Of a DNA stretch of 58,481 nt, positions 32,300-53,573 are shown piece after piece (within the stretch, counting starts at the first letter, position 1; each line of letters starts with the position of its first letter). The notes beneath the pieces are model-generated. The model was given only the letters and a program-made list of their open reading frames with translations. It made no database searches and had not been told where the DNA came from. The position numbers and the translations under genes are program-made. The DNA comes from an uncultured Clostridia bacterium (GTDB lineage: Bacteria; Bacillota_A; Clostridia; TANB77; CAG-508): contig CALXSA010000002.1 of NCBI GenBank assembly GCA_944390995.1, positions 1-58,481 on the forward strand, written 5' to 3'.

Positions 32300-32376
32300 G
32301 GGTCAGTAGCTCAGTTGGATAGAGCACACGCCTTCTAAGCGTGGGGTCGGGGGTTCGAATCCCTCCTGGCCCACCA
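32300..32376 (+). tRNA. tRNA-Arg (TCT)
   Basis: A 77-nt tRNA with a GGGTCAG/CTGGCCC acceptor, encoded CCA and the anticodon loop CTTCTAA (anticodon TCT, reading AGA/AGG). The prophage begins at its 3' end, which makes the tRNA the probable attachment site. Confidence 0.96.
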
Positions 32377-33820: not shown

Positions 33821-34876
33821 TTATTTAATAACTATTTTCTGTCCTGGATATATCAAATTAGCGTTCTTGATGTTGTTATCTTTTACTAGCTTGCTAACAG
33901 TAGTTTTGTACTTGCTTGCTATACCAGAAAGTGTATCTCCTGACTTGACAGTGTAAGTTTTAGTAACATTAGCGCCAAGTAGTTGATTTACTTTTGCTTG
34001 TACTTCATCGTAATCGTATCCCTCAGTTTCAAGTTTCTTCTTACGAGCATCGCCGTTTCCGTACTTGCCATTTATAACATCTTTTGCTACTTCTGTGATT
34101 GACTTCTTTTTATTCTTCTCCGATAATATTTCGTTTACTCTGTTTTGAACAGCGTCGTAATCATAACCAGCTTTTTCTAGCTTAGCCTTTCTGTCTTCGC
34201 CATCTCCCCATTTTCCGTCAATAACTTCTTCAGCAAGTTCGTCTACTGACTTTTTGTCACCAGTTGCAGAACCGTTTTCTTTTATGATTGATTCGTCGTA
34301 TAAGTAGTTCATGTCGCAGTTGCCACTTATTCCACTTACCTTCCCATCGCTCGCGTATTGCCATATGTCATAATCTCCTTCGTATTGACATTCTTTATAA
34401 TACTGTGCTACCCAAACGGAAACATCTTTGTCAAAGTCGGCTGGGTTTAATTCATTTTTTAGCCAGTTAACATTTGCGTACACACCTGCTCTATAGCCTT
34501 CTCCTTCAACGTATTTTGCAAACTCGTTTACTTGCTTAGTTAGAGTAGCTTTGCTTTCGCCTTGAATGTCCTTGTCTTCCATGTCTAAATAAATAGGCAT
34601 GTCTAACTTTTTATTTTCCAGTTTCTCAAAAGCCCATTTCAAGCCTTTCTTTAGTGTATCTACAGTATTACAATAGTTGTATATATATGCACCAACTTTG
34701 ATTCCTTGCGCTTTCGCATTTTTATAATTAGTTTCAAACTTACTGTCTTTATAGTTAGCATCGTAATCATAGATGTTGCCCAGTTTTAAAAGGGCAAATT
34801 CTACTCCTGCATTTTTAACTTTAGCCCAGTCAATTTTCCCCTGGAACTCTGATACATCAATTCCTTTCATTGACAT
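33821..34876 (-). CDS. phage endolysin: GH25 lysozyme, two Cpl-7 repeats, LysM
   Basis: This 351-residue lysin cleaves the N-acetylmuramyl-beta-1,4-GlcNAc bond of peptidoglycan to release phage. It has a GH25 domain at 3-200 with Asp7 (GIDVSE) and the catalytic DME (98-100). Two CW_7/Cpl-7 wall-binding repeats follow at about 210-252 and 258-300 (both with E/K-V-I-D/N-GKWGDGE/GKYGNGD), then one LysM (306-351, [16 protein letters not shown]). Combining Cpl-7 and LysM gives two wall-binding modes. There is no signal peptide, so it needs a holin. The start ATG has GGAGGG 6 nt upstream. Confidence 0.95.
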
Positions 34877-47856: not shown

Positions 47857-48154
47857 TCTTTACTTTCCTTTCACAAACTAGAACAGTCTCATCTGCATAG
47901 GGCTCAGTTGCTCGAATAATTGAGTAAGTAGTTCCCATATAGATAAGTTCTTCTTCGTTGTTATAGTTTAAACTACTGATACGAAGCCTTAAAGTAGGCT
48001 TAAAACCTTGCTCATTAGCTTCATAAAATTCGTCCTTGTAGACTTCCTCAGTTTTTATGATTGGTATTTCTACTTCTGTTACAACTTCTTTTTGTACACC
48101 TATACTATCTGTCTGTAGAGTAGTAGATAGCAACTTGCAACTTACATCACGCAT
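47840..48154 (-). CDS. phage head closure (stopper) protein
   Basis: 104 residues: EEVYKDEFYEANEQGFKPTLRLRISSLNYNNEEELIYMGTTYSIIRATE is the SPP1 gp16-like head-closure pattern. I choose ATG 48154 with AGGTG 6 nt upstream. It overlaps both neighbours by several nt, as is usual for this operon. Confidence 0.8.
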   Translation of the reverse strand: MRDVSCKLLSTTLQTDSIGVQKEVVTEVEIPIIKTEEVYKDEFYEANEQGFKPTLRLRISSLNYNNEEELIYMGTTYSIIRATEPYADETVLVCERKVKNVKSN

Positions 48155-48446
48155 TGCTATCACCTACCTTGTAATCTTCACTTAGACCTAAATTAGCACA
48201 GAGGTTGCTATATGTGCTCTGTGCTAATTCTTTTTCTTTTATATCTACATTGCCGAAATTGCTTTTTACGTACATAACAATAGCAGACTGAATTAATGCG
48301 TCGTTAGTATCTTGCGTTGCAAAAATACCTTGCCTATTCAAGTCTGCTATTCCTGCAAGTATAAGCATTTTAATTTCTTCGTCTTTCAATGTAGCTGTCT
48401 CAACAATGCTTAAGCATTGTTTAACAAGTTTTAGCAAATCGTCCAT
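48147..48446 (-). CDS. phage head-tail connector (gp6-like)
   Basis: A 99-residue, mainly helical protein: DDLLKLVKQCLSIVETATLKDEEIKMLILAGIADLNRQGI, then ALIQSAIVMYVKSNFGNVD. This is the gp6/YqbG-type adaptor that sits on the portal ring. It follows the capsid gene and its Ig-like extension. Confidence 0.8.
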   Translation of the reverse strand: MDDLLKLVKQCLSIVETATLKDEEIKMLILAGIADLNRQGIFATQDTNDALIQSAIVMYVKSNFGNVDIKEKELAQSTYSNLCANLGLSEDYKVGDSNA

Positions 48447-48463: not shown

Positions 48464-48765
48464 TTAAACTCCTGCTTCTTCTATTACGATTTGAGCAGTT
48501 GCTTCTTTAGTTTTTTGTTTGCTATCTGTTACGATAACAGTTATATTTTTGTTACCAGCTGTTGCAATTTGAGCTGCTGCTTGCACCTCTGTACCGCTTA
48601 TTTTAAATTCATCATTGTCTCCAGTACTAGCTTTTAAACTATAAGTGTAAGGAGCTGTTCCTCCTGTTGCACTTAAGTCAGCAACCTTTGTGTTAGCTTC
48701 AACTGGCGCTTCTAGCTCTGCAACTGGTGTAATAGTTAGTTCTGTGATTTCTGGGTCTGTTCCGA
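48464..48765 (-). CDS. Ig-like C-terminal extension of the capsid, read by -1 frameshift
   Basis: From the A9 run in the capsid gene (48766-48774), the -1 frame stays open for 100 codons to a TAA at 48464. It reads IGTDPEITELTITPVAELEA.., ATGGTAPYTYSLKA.., NKNITVIVTDSKQK.. and IVIEEAGV, a complete Ig-like (Big-type) domain of the sort displayed on many phage heads. It has no ATG or ribosome site of its own. Slipping one base back at A-AAA-AAA would give a 510-residue capsid variant. That some capsids carry such a domain through frameshifting is known for other siphoviruses. Confidence 0.75.
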
Positions 48766-49995
48766 TTTTTTTTTACCATAAACAAATGAGTTTGGAACTG
48801 GTGCTCCACCTACTACGCAGTATCCTGTGTAGTCATTTACTCTTGAACGACCTATGATGTCTTTTGATACAGAAATCCCTTCATTAAAGTTCATTTTGTA
48901 CCAGATTGGGTTTCCAATTACAAATTCTCCATCTTTTAAGAATGGGTCAACTTCTACTCTGTATTTTGCGATACTTTCAAGACCTACACCGTTTACAGGG
49001 TTATTAATATACATGCCGTTATCATCTTTTAAGAATGCTATGTCTAAAGCCATATCTTCAGCTATATATATTTTAGCTCCTGTTTTCTTTCTCTTTGGAA
49101 GTAAAGCAAGACCAGCTTTTATAGCTTCAAGAGATGTTGTTGTAGCTTCATATTCAGCACTTATATTATTTCCACTTAGAGAAATACCTGCGATTTCGTT
49201 AATTCCTGTACCATAAAATGGTTTGTCTGCTAACTCCTCTCTCATTTCTCTAGCAACTTCAGAAATTATATAGTTTACAAATTGGTCAACAGCCATTGCC
49301 TCTAATTTCCAAGTAATTCTTATAGTCTTAGAAAGTTCCATTTGTGCAAAAGTTAATTCTGTCCACTCGTCTGACTCTAATTTATTGTCTTTTCCTTCTG
49401 TTACCCATTCAGCTCCTGAACTTTGTTTCTTATAAGGGAATGTTATTAGTCCTCTTACGTATGTTTTAGCAATGTCTCTTAAGAATGGAGACTCTAGTTC
49501 CATTTCTCTTAAGATTTCCATTGAAACAGTTTCTGGGATAAATAGTCCACCATTGTTCACACCATCAGCTCCTGAACTTGGAGCTACGTAAGTTGTCGCA
49601 GTTGTTGTTAGCGCAACATCTAACGCTCTTTTCTCAGCCTCTGTGAAATCGTTTCTGCACATTAATGTTTTAGCCCATGCAGAACGATATTCTTCAGACT
49701 TAAATACATTGTCTTTGTTTAATTCCTTTTCCATTTTTCTTTCCTCCTTGATTTTTTGAATTTCTTTTACTTCAACATTTCGTTTTTCTAACTCTTTGAC
49801 ATCAGCTAACAAACTTCTTTCTTCTTCATGAGAAATTTCTCCAGACTTTTTTTCTTCTGGTTTCTCATCTTCTGGAACCTCTTTATTTATTGCCTCTGCC
49901 TCTTTTCTTAACTCTGCTAGTTCTTCTTCAGATTTAACATCGTTTATCTTGTTAAATATCTCAGCTTTTCTAGCTTCAATTTCTTTTAAAGTCAT
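48736..49995 (-). CDS. HK97-family major capsid protein
   Basis: A 419-residue HK97-fold capsid protein. Residues 1 to about 95 form the delta domain, a charged coiled-coil scaffold cut off by the protease. The mature part begins near KMEKELNKDN, with FIPETVSMEILREMELESPFLRDIAKTY, WVTEGKDNKLE, and the late GYCVVGGAPVPNSFVYGKKK. The zero-frame end after KKK is only nine residues (SEQTQKSQN). AGGAGG lies 9 nt before the ATG. Two hairpins with the same loop lie just upstream (50024-50100). Confidence 0.94.
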   Translation of the reverse strand: MTLKEIEARKAEIFNKINDVKSEEELAELRKEAEAINKEVPEDEKPEEKKSGEISHEEERSLLADVKELEKRNVEVKEIQKIKEERKMEKELNKDNVFKSEEYRSAWAKTLMCRNDFTEAEKRALDVALTTTATTYVAPSSGADGVNNGGLFIPETVSMEILREMELESPFLRDIAKTYVRGLITFPYKKQSSGAEWVTEGKDNKLESDEWTELTFAQMELSKTIRITWKLEAMAVDQFVNYIISEVAREMREELADKPFYGTGINEIAGISLSGNNISAEYEATTTSLEAIKAGLALLPKRKKTGAKIYIAEDMALDIAFLKDDNGMYINNPVNGVGLESIAKYRVEVDPFLKDGEFVIGNPIWYKMNFNEGISVSKDIIGRSRVNDYTGYCVVGGAPVPNSFVYGKKKSEQTQKSQN

Positions 49996-50109: not shown

Positions 50110-50667
50110 TTATAAACTTAACATAAGTTTTATTTTTTCTTTTTCAAGCTCTAGGTCTTTTTTCTTCTTTTCCTTTAAGTAGTCTTCCTTGCTCCTTGCA
50201 TAAATTTCTGTGCTATCATAGAAAGGAACATCTACAACAGATACATCATATAGCTTATCTATATGTAGTATTCTTCTTGTATTAGTTTCATAATCATATT
50301 CTTCTTTATCTACGGTAAAAGCGAAGCTCATTTTATCTAATAAACTTGCCTTTATCATCTTATAAACATCTCTATTATTAGTTGTGTCTATTAGCTCAGC
50401 TCTTATTTTTAAGCCCTTATCATCTACTATTAGCTGTAGACTATTATTTCTTGTTCTTGCCAATATTAAAAAATTATCTTGATGATTATACTTAAAGCAT
50501 ACATCTGACATATCACAGCCGTTAAAAGCGTTTTTGTCTATAACTTCTGTATAATCATAATGTGTTGCTGGGTTGTCAAAAACCACAGCATACCCTTCTA
50601 TAATCATTTTATCGTCATCTAATGCACGTAATTCTGTAAGTCGTACTTCTTTAATTGCTTTCTCCAT
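50110..50667 (-). CDS. HK97-type prohead protease
   Basis: A 185-residue serine protease (S78-type) that matures the capsid. The catalytic His is in YNHQDNFLI (about 60), the Ser in KMSFAFTV (about 113), and the following acidic residue lies in VSVVDVPFY. I choose ATG 50667, which has GGAGG 8 nt upstream inside the portal gene end. The C-terminal 25 residues are a Lys/Glu coil. It overlaps the portal gene by 17 nt. Confidence 0.9.
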   Translation of the reverse strand: MEKAIKEVRLTELRALDDDKMIIEGYAVVFDNPATHYDYTEVIDKNAFNGCDMSDVCFKYNHQDNFLILARTRNNSLQLIVDDKGLKIRAELIDTTNNRDVYKMIKASLLDKMSFAFTVDKEEYDYETNTRRILHIDKLYDVSVVDVPFYDSTEIYARSKEDYLKEKKKKDLELEKEKIKLMLSL

Positions 50668-51871
50668 TGCCTTCACCTCCAACTTGATATTGATTAGCAT
50701 ATTTACTATCTATATTGTTTAAACTTTGTAAAATTTTGTTTCCTTCTTCTCCTCCCAGAGGCGCTAAGTCTAAAATTTCTCTACCTTCATCTACTCTTAT
50801 CATTGCCCATGGAGCTACTGCCTCGAGTAGTTTTATCTTCGTGTTTAAACTAGCATATTGCAACCTATTAGCTGTAAATACAATTCTATGTCCTTTTCTT
50901 ATAGATTGCCTATTAAATATTTTCACTGTAAAAGCATTACTCATTTGCATTGCTCTTGCTTCTATTACTCCCTCATAAAAGGCATTCCATTCTTCTTCAG
51001 TAAAACTATTTCTTATAATCTTTTCAGAAACTCCGAAATAGTCAAAAATGTTATTATTTACTTGCTCTAATTGTGCCTTGTCTAATGTGATTGGTTTTAA
51101 ATTGATTGCTTCAAAATCTGCTTTGGCGTCTACTGCTGCAATTCCGCTTTCATTCTCTAAATTCAAGAAATCTTTAACAAAGGCCTCTTTACTTGCTTTA
51201 ATGTCCTTATCTTTAAGCATTGAATTAGTGTATTTCAAAATACCTTTTAAGTTATTGCTAGTTTTTATTGCATTTTTTATTCCTTCGCTTGCAGTATGTG
51301 CTGTTTCTAAATCTGTTCTTAACACGCTATTATTAGTTCCAAAAACATCATGTTTATTATAAAAAAGCCTTAAATGAATTAGCTCTGTATACGGTAATGT
51401 GTAAAATTTCCCATTAATAAATTGAAACTGTAATAACGGTGTTCCTTCTTCATTTTGTAGCAGTATATACGATTGTGCCAAAACCGGGTAAAAACCTGTT
51501 ATGAAACCTGTCTCATCTTTTGCTATAAATATAAAAGCATTGCAATCAGTGTAGAGCATCGATATTGTTTTATATATAAAGTCAAATCTTGTCATTATTT
51601 CATTAGGTTGAACACTTAGCAAATAATTTATGTCACCCTGTACATTGTTACTAATTGAGTTTTGTATATGTTTTGGAATAAGTTTTGCACAATTTGTTGC
51701 TATTCTGTCTATACACTCTCTTGCTACTTTGCTATCATAAGTATCTGTGCCTAGCGTGGTAAATTGCGCATTGTAACTATTAAGCATCTGAAATTGCGTT
51801 TGTGTTAAATTCTGATACTGCTTTTTCTTTCCAAAAAGCATATCGAATAAGCTTCTTTTTTCTTTCTTCAT
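50651..51871 (-). CDS. HK97-family portal protein
   Basis: A 406-residue dodecameric portal through which DNA is packaged. Motifs: YDSKVARECIDRIATNCAKL (about 43-62), VQPNEIMTRFDFIYKTISML, FNKH-like LRLFYNKHDVFGTNN, and the C-terminal NSFTEEEWNAFYEG..PWAMIRVDEGREILDLAPLGGEEGNK. It follows the large terminase gene by 1 nt and overlaps the protease. Confidence 0.93.
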   Translation of the reverse strand: MKKEKRSLFDMLFGKKKQYQNLTQTQFQMLNSYNAQFTTLGTDTYDSKVARECIDRIATNCAKLIPKHIQNSISNNVQGDINYLLSVQPNEIMTRFDFIYKTISMLYTDCNAFIFIAKDETGFITGFYPVLAQSYILLQNEEGTPLLQFQFINGKFYTLPYTELIHLRLFYNKHDVFGTNNSVLRTDLETAHTASEGIKNAIKTSNNLKGILKYTNSMLKDKDIKASKEAFVKDFLNLENESGIAAVDAKADFEAINLKPITLDKAQLEQVNNNIFDYFGVSEKIIRNSFTEEEWNAFYEGVIEARAMQMSNAFTVKIFNRQSIRKGHRIVFTANRLQYASLNTKIKLLEAVAPWAMIRVDEGREILDLAPLGGEEGNKILQSLNNIDSKYANQYQVGGEGNGESN

Positions 51872-51872
51872 T

Positions 51873-53573
51873 TCATTCCTCCTGCATTGCTAAGTAATCA
51901 TTCATTTTCTCATATAAAACACAGTAAGCTATTATTAAACTTACTGCACCATCTATTCTTGCTCTTTGTTTTTGCCCCTTTACTGGTCTCATGTTGTCGT
52001 TTTCGTCTCTTTTGACTGACGTATTGCATAAGCACCATTTTAAAACAGGATTATTGTTATAATTTACGTTTTTTTCTATCAAATCAGCTTCTAATTGTTT
52101 CATTGGATTGCTCATTGTCTTAGCTCCTTGTCTTACTTCAACCATTTCAAAGCCATAATCTTTCATTTCTTCTACCCAGTACTGAGTATTCCAGGGGTCA
52201 TAGCCAATCCATAATGCTGATATATCATGTTCATTATGCATTCTTAGGAACCATTGCGTTACATCACTGTAATTCACTTTTGCTCCTTCACAAATTGTTA
52301 CAAGACCTCGTTTTTCCCATTTATCATAAGGAATTTTATCGTCTTTTATCTTAAATTCTAGTCTTTCGCTTGGTATGAAGTATTGCTGTAATACATATTT
52401 CTTACCGTGTTTTATAATCAGTAAAGTGGCACATGTTAAATCTGTCGTACTTGACAAATCAACTCCACCAATTGCATATGTGTCAAATAACTCCTCTATG
52501 TTGTATGTTTCTTCGTTATTTGCTATGTCGAAAGTTATCCACTTGTCTTGGTCATTTTGCCTGATGTTAAAGTCTTTACAAAGTAAATTTACTAATTCAG
52601 TCGGATTATTTTTAGCTCTATTTACTTTGTCTCTTAAGTCCTTAATATTTTTTATTGTTCCTAGCCCTGGATTAGCTTTATACCATTTCTTTTCGTCTTG
52701 CCATTCATTAGGGTTGTCTAATTCATAAATGACCGGCAATACTGTTTCGTCTACTATGTTACTTTTGCCTTCATAACCTGCTATTATTTCAGAAAAATAT
52801 TCATATTCATTATCAAATACACTTTCACGAATAGTACCCATTGTAGAAGTTTCTAAAAGCATTGGTTGCTCTCTAGCACTCATTGAGTCATACATTACGT
52901 CTAGCAAATTCTTGTCTTTCCAAGCATGAACCTCATCACATATAACAAAGTGAGCGTTTAGTCCATCTAATGAATTACTATCACTAGCAAGTGCCTTGAA
53001 AGAACTTTCTGTAGCATCGTAGTAGATGCCACCCACTAGACATCTAACTCTTTTTTGTAATGCCGGTGACTTTTTTATCATTCTTTTGGCTTCGTCCCAT
53101 ACTACTTTTGCCTGGTCTCTTTTGGTAGCAACTGAATATACCTCTGCTCCACCCTCACCGTCTTTTGTTAGCATGTAATTAGCAAGGCCAGAGTCCATTG
53201 TAGACTTACCATTTTTTCTGCCTATGAACAGAGCACCTTTTTTGTACTTGCGTATACCTGTATCTTTATCAACAAAACCAAACAGTGCCTGTATAAATGC
53301 TTTTTGGAACAGCTCTAGCTTAACAGGTTGTCCTGCCCATTTGCCTTTTGAATGCCTACAATACTTTTCAATAAAAAGAATTGGTTTATTACCCTTTTTT
53401 TCATTGAATATATATGTGTGTGTTTCTTCTTCTTCAGTTATTTCATTAAAAAAAGAAACTTTTTTCGGTTTCTTAATGTCATCTACTAATTTTTTGTATG
53501 TAACTAAAACTTTGTGGCAAGCCTTCTCTGGGTTTTTCTTTAAGAAATTATAATATTCTTCAATATATGTCAT
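51873..53573 (-). CDS. terL: phage terminase large subunit
   Basis: A 566-residue packaging motor. The ATPase domain has Walker A GRKNGKS (118-124) and Walker B VICDE (210-214) with AHFVICDEVHAW. The C-terminal RNase H-like nuclease domain begins GGVDLSSTTDLT, and GYDPWNTQYWVEEM follows. It pairs with the P27-type small subunit, overlapping it by 4 nt. This type usually cuts at cos sites together with an HNH enzyme; the HNH gene here is broken. Confidence 0.95.
   Translation of the reverse strand: MTYIEEYYNFLKKNPEKACHKVLVTYKKLVDDIKKPKKVSFFNEITEEEETHTYIFNEKKGNKPILFIEKYCRHSKGKWAGQPVKLELFQKAFIQALFGFVDKDTGIRKYKKGALFIGRKNGKSTMDSGLANYMLTKDGEGGAEVYSVATKRDQAKVVWDEAKRMIKKSPALQKRVRCLVGGIYYDATESSFKALASDSNSLDGLNAHFVICDEVHAWKDKNLLDVMYDSMSAREQPMLLETSTMGTIRESVFDNEYEYFSEIIAGYEGKSNIVDETVLPVIYELDNPNEWQDEKKWYKANPGLGTIKNIKDLRDKVNRAKNNPTELVNLLCKDFNIRQNDQDKWITFDIANNEETYNIEELFDTYAIGGVDLSSTTDLTCATLLIIKHGKKYVLQQYFIPSERLEFKIKDDKIPYDKWEKRGLVTICEGAKVNYSDVTQWFLRMHNEHDISALWIGYDPWNTQYWVEEMKDYGFEMVEVRQGAKTMSNPMKQLEADLIEKNVNYNNNPVLKWCLCNTSVKRDENDNMRPVKGQKQRARIDGAVSLIIAYCVLYEKMNDYLAMQEE

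Follow-up and report, generated by a model that had tools for sequence, protein, structure and literature searches.

The window analysed here, a stretch of 58,481 nucleotides, looks like a piece of bacterial chromosome, with genes for an anaerobic ribonucleotide reductase, LytR and ABC transporters, that runs into a prophage beyond a tRNA-Arg gene. Three further tRNA genes (Tyr, Gln and Met) lie close to its right end. The prophage host is probably a Clostridia bacterium; the eight relatives among genome contigs are all metagenome-assembled, and seven carry the name Clostridia, the eighth Tetragenococcus. In the head operon, on the minus strand, the genes follow one another in the order terminase, portal, protease, capsid and connector. 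The features of the locus are as follows:

32300-32376, tRNA-Arg
32300-58481, probable prophage adjoining tRNA-Arg, with GH25 endolysin, tail, head and packaging genes
33821-34876, GH25 endolysin with CW_7 and LysM repeats
51873..53573, minus strand, terminase large subunit (PF20441/PF03354)
50651..51871, minus strand, portal protein (PF04860, E 1.1e-44)
50110..50700, minus strand, prohead protease, upstream of the capsid gene in the head operon (PF04586, E 6.9e-35)
48736..49995, minus strand, major capsid protein, short form of 419 aa (PF05065, E 5.9e-24; phrog_10, E 2.2e-35)
48766..48774, minus strand, A9 slippery run, GGT AAA AAA AAA T, assigned from the sequence and from conservation at 19/19 homologous junctions
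48736..48738, minus strand, stop codon (TAA) that ends the short capsid form in the zero frame
48464..48766, minus strand, Ig-like domain, -1 frame (new codons from ATC at 48766-48764 to the stop TAA at 48466-48464)
48147..48446, minus strand, head-tail connector, the next gene after capsid-Ig (PF24829, E 8.5e-10; phrog_5223)

On the minus strand, the zero frame of the capsid gene ends TAT GGT AAA AAA AAA TCG ... AAC TAA, with nine codons between the A9 run and the stop, and the short form has the C-terminus KKKSEQTQKSQN followed by the stop. When one A is read twice, the reading continues as ...KKK-IGTDPEITELTITPV...EEAGV and the product ends at 48464. The span 49995-48464 comprises 1532 nt, and doubling one base gives 1533 nt, or 511 codons including the stop. 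The initial annotation had placed the capsid end nine residues past GGT-AAA-AAA-AAA with this same length, and had described a start-less Ig-like domain of some 100 codons, open in the -1 frame down to 48464; both descriptions were confirmed. Separate translation of the Ig domain was ruled out, as its roughly 100 codons contain neither ATG nor TTG and a single GTG, located mid-domain. The connector gene has its own AGGAGG site, behind the Ig stop.

Chance accounts poorly for this open frame, since a run of 102 codons arose in 9 of 20000 trials under a second-order Markov model of the phage's own genes, and the longest same-strand alternative-frame open run within 13 phage genes was 80 codons. 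Comparison of the window with the related locus L008 revealed 55 changes, which fall 12/11/32 on first, second and third positions of the -1 codons. For the three pairs formed by the window, L008 and L009, dN was 0.08-0.11 and dS 0.58-0.68, giving a dN/dS of 0.13-0.17, a substitution pattern that indicates purifying selection on the Ig frame. The locus combines a capsid gene whose zero-frame stop lies just past the shift site with a start-less, selected Ig-like domain in the shifted frame, two features of Ig extensions of the T3/A2 type.

An AlphaFold2 model of the isolated domain was a beta sandwich with a pLDDT of 92.3 and a pTM of 0.81. The domain is matched by phrog_2973, a family of Hoc-like head decoration proteins (E 1e-5), and by SprB PF13573 (E 7.6e-5, below Pfam's cut-off). 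In structure searches, the top six PDB matches were cadherin and Rib domains, a cadherin domain of BT-R1 and a capsid chain of N4, at E 3e-3 to 7e-3 and TMq 0.44-0.63; no PDB structure matched at E 0.001 or better, and the Ig assignment is therefore made at the level of the fold only. Among viral models, a protein of cyanophage SS120-1 matched best (TMq 0.83, E 6e-6). The model of an in-frame capsid-Ig fusion, P0021, was poor (pLDDT 47.7), its capsid part being unusable.

Outside these capsids, the nearest sequence relatives among the matches listed are multi-Ig proteins, mostly of 843 aa (P0121-P0239), which share, in most cases, 57-64% identity with the window domain through their last domain, as judged by eye. 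For 16 of the 120 matches listed the longest contig measures 184-196 kb, and these proteins possibly belong to a large phage that draws on the same domain pool. The 843-aa protein had no relative in phage records or in an IMG/VR scan with P0122. Phage records queried with the window Ig domain likewise returned no relative, nor did IMG/VR scans with the A9 pattern and the Ig alignments (two peptide patterns each) or the capsid profile run against PDB sequences. An 1832-aa open frame with eight matches to the Ig alignment was also observed in a 4.7-Mb genome (G676:C10:348997-351552), and is possibly a cell-surface protein.

Whole-genome searches, together with earlier scans, yielded 19 Ig-bearing capsid loci: the window, L008, L009, L113-L123 and L160-L164. 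The capsid-Ig protein was matched in 30/390 genomes of the family of G002, and the Ig alignment in 10/391 genomes of the class, 15/385 of the order and 6/143 relatives of G454, these genome samples overlapping. L165 and L166 (weak matches lying in a peptidase-like frame) and hits that were multi-repeat or weak, such as that in G676, were left out, and L016, L017, L064, L085, L125 and others are repeat copies of counted places that were not counted twice. The capsids of L116 and L119 are partial because these loci begin at contig edges.

The Ig frame is open in all 19 loci. Relative to the capsid gene it lies in the -1 frame in 16 and in frame in three (L114, L116 and L117), and in the +1 frame in none. 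The run of A at the junction is never shorter than nine, with A9 in ten loci, A10 in seven and A11 in two, and in the -1 loci the stop of the short form stands 0-9 codons behind it. This survey gives strong support to the proposed joining of capsid and Ig domain through -1 recoding, all 16 out-of-frame loci being -1, and the comparison with relatives that had been called for found the run of at least nine A kept in 19/19 and the -1 phase in 16/19. Relatives with capsid and Ig domain in one frame, which the initial annotation had held to speak against it, do exist in L114, L116 and L117, yet all three keep 9-11 A.

If the Ig frame were instead a decayed or misassembled, unexpressed remnant, the error-prone nature of homopolymers and the metagenome-type assemblies from which most relatives come could explain a shifted frame, and one copy, L123, does have a capsid frame broken by stops and may be decaying. 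Against this, the out-of-frame loci are all in the same phase (16 loci in 15 assemblies, two of them in G192) with both A9 and A10 runs, and the frame is open throughout and subject to the constraint described above, which makes a remnant very improbable. The uniform phase also led us to reject assembly error as the main explanation, and we consider it unlikely. Taken together, we put the probability that the capsid gene is joined to the Ig domain by recoding, whether by the polymerase or by the ribosome, at about 0.9 on the strength of the conserved junctions, and the prophage very probably makes its shell protein both with and without the Ig-like domain.

The three in-frame loci bear on how the two forms could arise. 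L114 and L117 have A11, and L116 has A9 followed by C. In L114 and L117, gaining or losing one A brings translation to a stop at most three codons on, whichever of the other two frames is entered; in L116 the distance to the stop is two codons for a gain of one A and about ten for a loss. These stops suggest that both products are wanted, whichever frame is the default, and they could also be leftovers of a one-base change of the run. Among proteins, too, eight in-frame fusions were found: P0021 and seven of the L121 type, P0244 and P0248 included. They make up 1/15 of the representatives that are fused or end in KKK or KKN in one search (120 listed of 975) and 7/36 of the KKK-type representatives in a second (120 listed of 7999). 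At the protein level, the endings of P0003, P0241 and P0254 resemble the third frame, and P0022 ends KKKAGV, as though the domain had been lost.

Such in-frame states are what would be expected of a contingency tract acting at the DNA level, in which replication slippage toggles genomes between a short capsid and an entirely fused one, so that populations rather than virions are mixed. They are, however, confined to three of the 19 loci and to the minor fractions of listed representatives given above, and part of them may stem from long runs that were misread or misassembled. We therefore regard a contingency tract as improbable, and consider recoding within the expressed gene the better account.

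A single A9 run is unremarkable in this window, where the forward strand has 50 T7 runs, seven T8 runs and one T9 run, the last being the slip site; its conservation is remarkable. Among 48 distinct Ig-less capsid ends, none contains an A9 run and the longest run is 6; in five of them the protein closes with KKK and then two or three residues, with AAG among the lysine codons, and the 48 also include L026, whose KKK stands nine residues from the end (longest run 6). An end was taken as Ig-less when the next gene starts within 87 nt (47/48) or, for L024 (217 nt), when no open frame lies behind the stop, and the set omits duplicates, matches short of the capsid end, ends off the contig and L055, a match of 39% identity whose capsid has an odd end. 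Within the 19 loci themselves, none of 37 other KKK triplets (the L160 junction excluded) falls within nine or more consecutive A, the longest run being 7, and 19 of the 24 A/T runs of at least nine in 220,499 bp are the junctions. Fisher p values of 4e-17 and 2e-14 are indicative only, since related loci were treated as independent and the values overstate that independence.

The last codon of the run is AAG or AAC at nine of the 19 junctions, and in 9/9 of these the preceding codon ends in A, holding the run at nine; across all junctions the codon preceding the run ends in A in 18/19. This offers modest support for polymerase slippage, because it partly reflects codon usage: five of the nine are leucine codons, which end in A in 75-100% of cases anyway.

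A separate observation concerns L164, where one KKN at the end of a tail gene does sit in an A9 run. The open reading frame in question (L164:6346-6846), tail-gene-like by likeness to its neighbours, ends ATA AAA AAA AAC TAG, with about 30 further codons open in the -1 frame past the run, and is possibly a second slip site in the same prophage.

Which machine slips was approached through the signals around the run. In a classical programmed -1 ribosomal frameshift, two tRNA-Lys would slip together at A_AAA_AAA or A_AAA_AAG on an unaltered RNA. The in-phase X_XXY_YYZ heptamer that this calls for is present in 16/16 of the -1 loci, in the window as A_AAA_AAA inside the A9 run (48772-48766, minus strand) and in L164 as A_AAA_AAC. 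At 7/19 junctions AAA AAA AAG provides A_AAA_AAG, and four of these seven have downstream structure (45 nt; z -7.3 in L160, -4.0 in L161, -2.5 in L121 and -2.3 in L123); in addition, a review reports that the capsids of T3 and A2 are extended into Ig domains by -1 frameshifting (PMC5009743). Any A9 run contains a -1 heptamer, so the heptamer is indecisive between the two machines. The heptamer requires only 6-7 A, yet the run has at least nine in 19/19; a Shine-Dalgarno (SD)-like motif within 20 nt upstream was absent in 18/19, being present in L114 only; and over 70 nt downstream the 19 loci showed no consistent structure (mean z -0.29). The window, L008 and L009 lack both kinds of stimulatory element, SD-like or downstream stem-loop, their 70-nt downstream z ranging from 0.23 to 0.56. 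In our estimate a ribosomal frameshift is a real candidate, but the less likely one.

The floor of nine A and the lack of consistent stimulators favour slippage of RNA polymerase, for which a conserved homopolymer of about nine or more is the expected signature and is found at 19/19 junctions. In the same review, slippage on runs of nine As is reported to be efficient in vivo (PMC5009743), and for an A11 run in tssM a slippage of about 20% is described, with neither SD nor structure found nearby (PMC4256274). From the sequences compared here, RNA-polymerase slippage is probably the main route, with appreciable room for doubt. Of the earlier proposal of a -1 frameshift, the recoding accordingly holds up, while its ribosomal character lacks the expected elements, with no SD-like element in 18/19 and no consistent downstream structure. 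A strong fold upstream of the window's run (z -2.4) was considered as a signal and rejected; five Ig-less sisters have similar folds (z -1.4 to -2.6), and it probably reflects capsid coding.

The Ig-carrying capsids are not of one kind, falling in phrog_10, phrog_267/283 and phrog_544 (8/19 loci scanned, with the window scanned separately). L118 and L120 have capsids without BLAST similarity (E<1) and Ig domains 94% identical; the same holds for L122 and L123 (Ig 89% identical; the L123 capsid piece is partial, 97 aa) and for L116 and L115 (Ig 87% identical; the L116 piece is partial, 181 aa). The window and L113 share 23% identity in the capsid (E 0.027) and 85% in the Ig domain, and conversely L117 and L122 have capsids 80% identical and Ig domains 39% identical. 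DNA common to both members of a pair starts at the run: L113 and L122 share TAAAAAAAAAAGTAG-GTAGTAGA-CCAGAAAT, and the common junction DNA of L118 and L120 is TAAAAAAAAAGTCGG. Ig-less sister capsids end in GHEKAGV, GHKKASV and similar sequences, and the Ig stop region of the window, GCAGGAGTTTAAAATAAAAGGAGG, resembles the 3' end of the Ig-less L014 capsid gene, as if a cassette had been inserted between the last conserved capsid residues and the old stop.

Because Ig domains that are 87-94% identical sit on dissimilar capsids, the A-run and the domain seem to travel together as one moving unit among unrelated capsid genes. More tentatively, and with the odds somewhat against it in our estimate, this unit could be a mobile cassette that any capsid gene can acquire, bringing its own recoding signal, operating by RNA-polymerase slippage and tolerant of phase. 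A9 and A10 templates would then give mostly bare capsid and in-frame A11 templates mostly fused capsid, both yielding a mixture. If true, unrelated phage heads would have a common, interchangeable means of placing a surface domain on some of their subunits.

Other in-frame C-terminal additions were seen on L121-type capsids that lack the KKK end: PF09479 in P0282, P0292, P0296 and P0306, and in P0279 and P0297 a segment like LTKEQLLVKANDLGITTVS, SAP-like by eye. The capsid end may on this account be a general display site.

We propose that most capsid mRNAs would be read in the zero frame to give the 419-aa protein, and that for a minority reading would continue in the -1 frame beyond the A9 run, giving the capsid with a C-terminal Ig domain, about 510 aa in all. 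The slip would mostly be made by RNA polymerase in transcribing the run, since one inserted A yields the protein that shifting by -1 would yield; a -1 ribosomal slip at A_AAA_AAA is a possible contributor. Some subunits per head could then display the Ig domain outwardly on a two-form head. The recoding signal seems to travel with the domain and to persist in sequences where long A runs are otherwise avoided, and a two-form head consequently looks selected. Junctions on several capsid types offer a natural panel for distinguishing polymerase from ribosome slippage. Gene callers without a frameshift model would tend to overlook the Ig domain in the -1 cases.

The earlier statement that frameshifted Ig-like extensions occur in other phages is right. 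Ig-tailed capsids made by -1 frameshifting are described for phage T3 and Lactobacillus phage A2, and coat-protein frameshifts for Listeria phages A118 and A500 (-1) and PSA (+1), in a passage of that review (PMC5009743). As in T3 and A2, a major capsid gene receives a C-terminal Ig extension through a shift close to its stop, and with the Listeria phages the loci share a C-terminal extension of the major capsid protein through such a shift. Unlike this set as the passage presents it, the signal here is a run of at least nine A, with the domain -1 or in frame at 19/19 loci. That passage also relays the suggestion that the phase and direction of Ig domains on phage proteins reflect chance in recombination (PMC5009743), whereas here the slip run is common to unrelated capsid genes.

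In the Kuravirus-like phage YF01, a -1 shift close to the capsid stop of gp8 similarly adds an Ig-like domain, but at a GGGAAAG heptamer and with a larger extension; for Kuravirus SU10, the same paper notes that the predicted Ig-extended capsid was absent from structure and gel, earlier SU10 work having differed (PMC9965538). The A_AAA_AAG heptamer at seven junctions is that of E. coli dnaX.

Closer in signal are Thermus dnaX (nine residues) and Citrobacter tssM (A11), in which an A/T run of 9-11 gives two products (PMC5009743, PMC4256274), and the stops in both non-zero frames of L114 and L117 recall the layout of Thermus dnaX (PMC5009743). In both of these cellular genes RNA heterogeneity has been measured, whereas the present case is a phage capsid gene known from DNA.

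The phrog_2973 match likens the domain to T4 Hoc, an Ig-like fold serving as head decoration; Hoc is a separate capsid surface protein (PMC13370021), and here a fusion on a fraction of the subunits is predicted. The same paper reports that gut-phage Ig-like proteins placed on phage K1F through a frameshifted minor capsid protein enhanced epithelial adherence (PMC13370021, 2026), a result compatible with the putative role in binding mucus, cells or polysaccharide, and no more. No description of an A-run Ig cassette of capsids was recognised among the open-licence papers that the searches listed. An Ig-tailed capsid made by recoding is known, and a portable A9-A11 slip cassette on three capsid groups, lacking consistent stimulators of ribosomal shifting, is, as far as these searches show, new.
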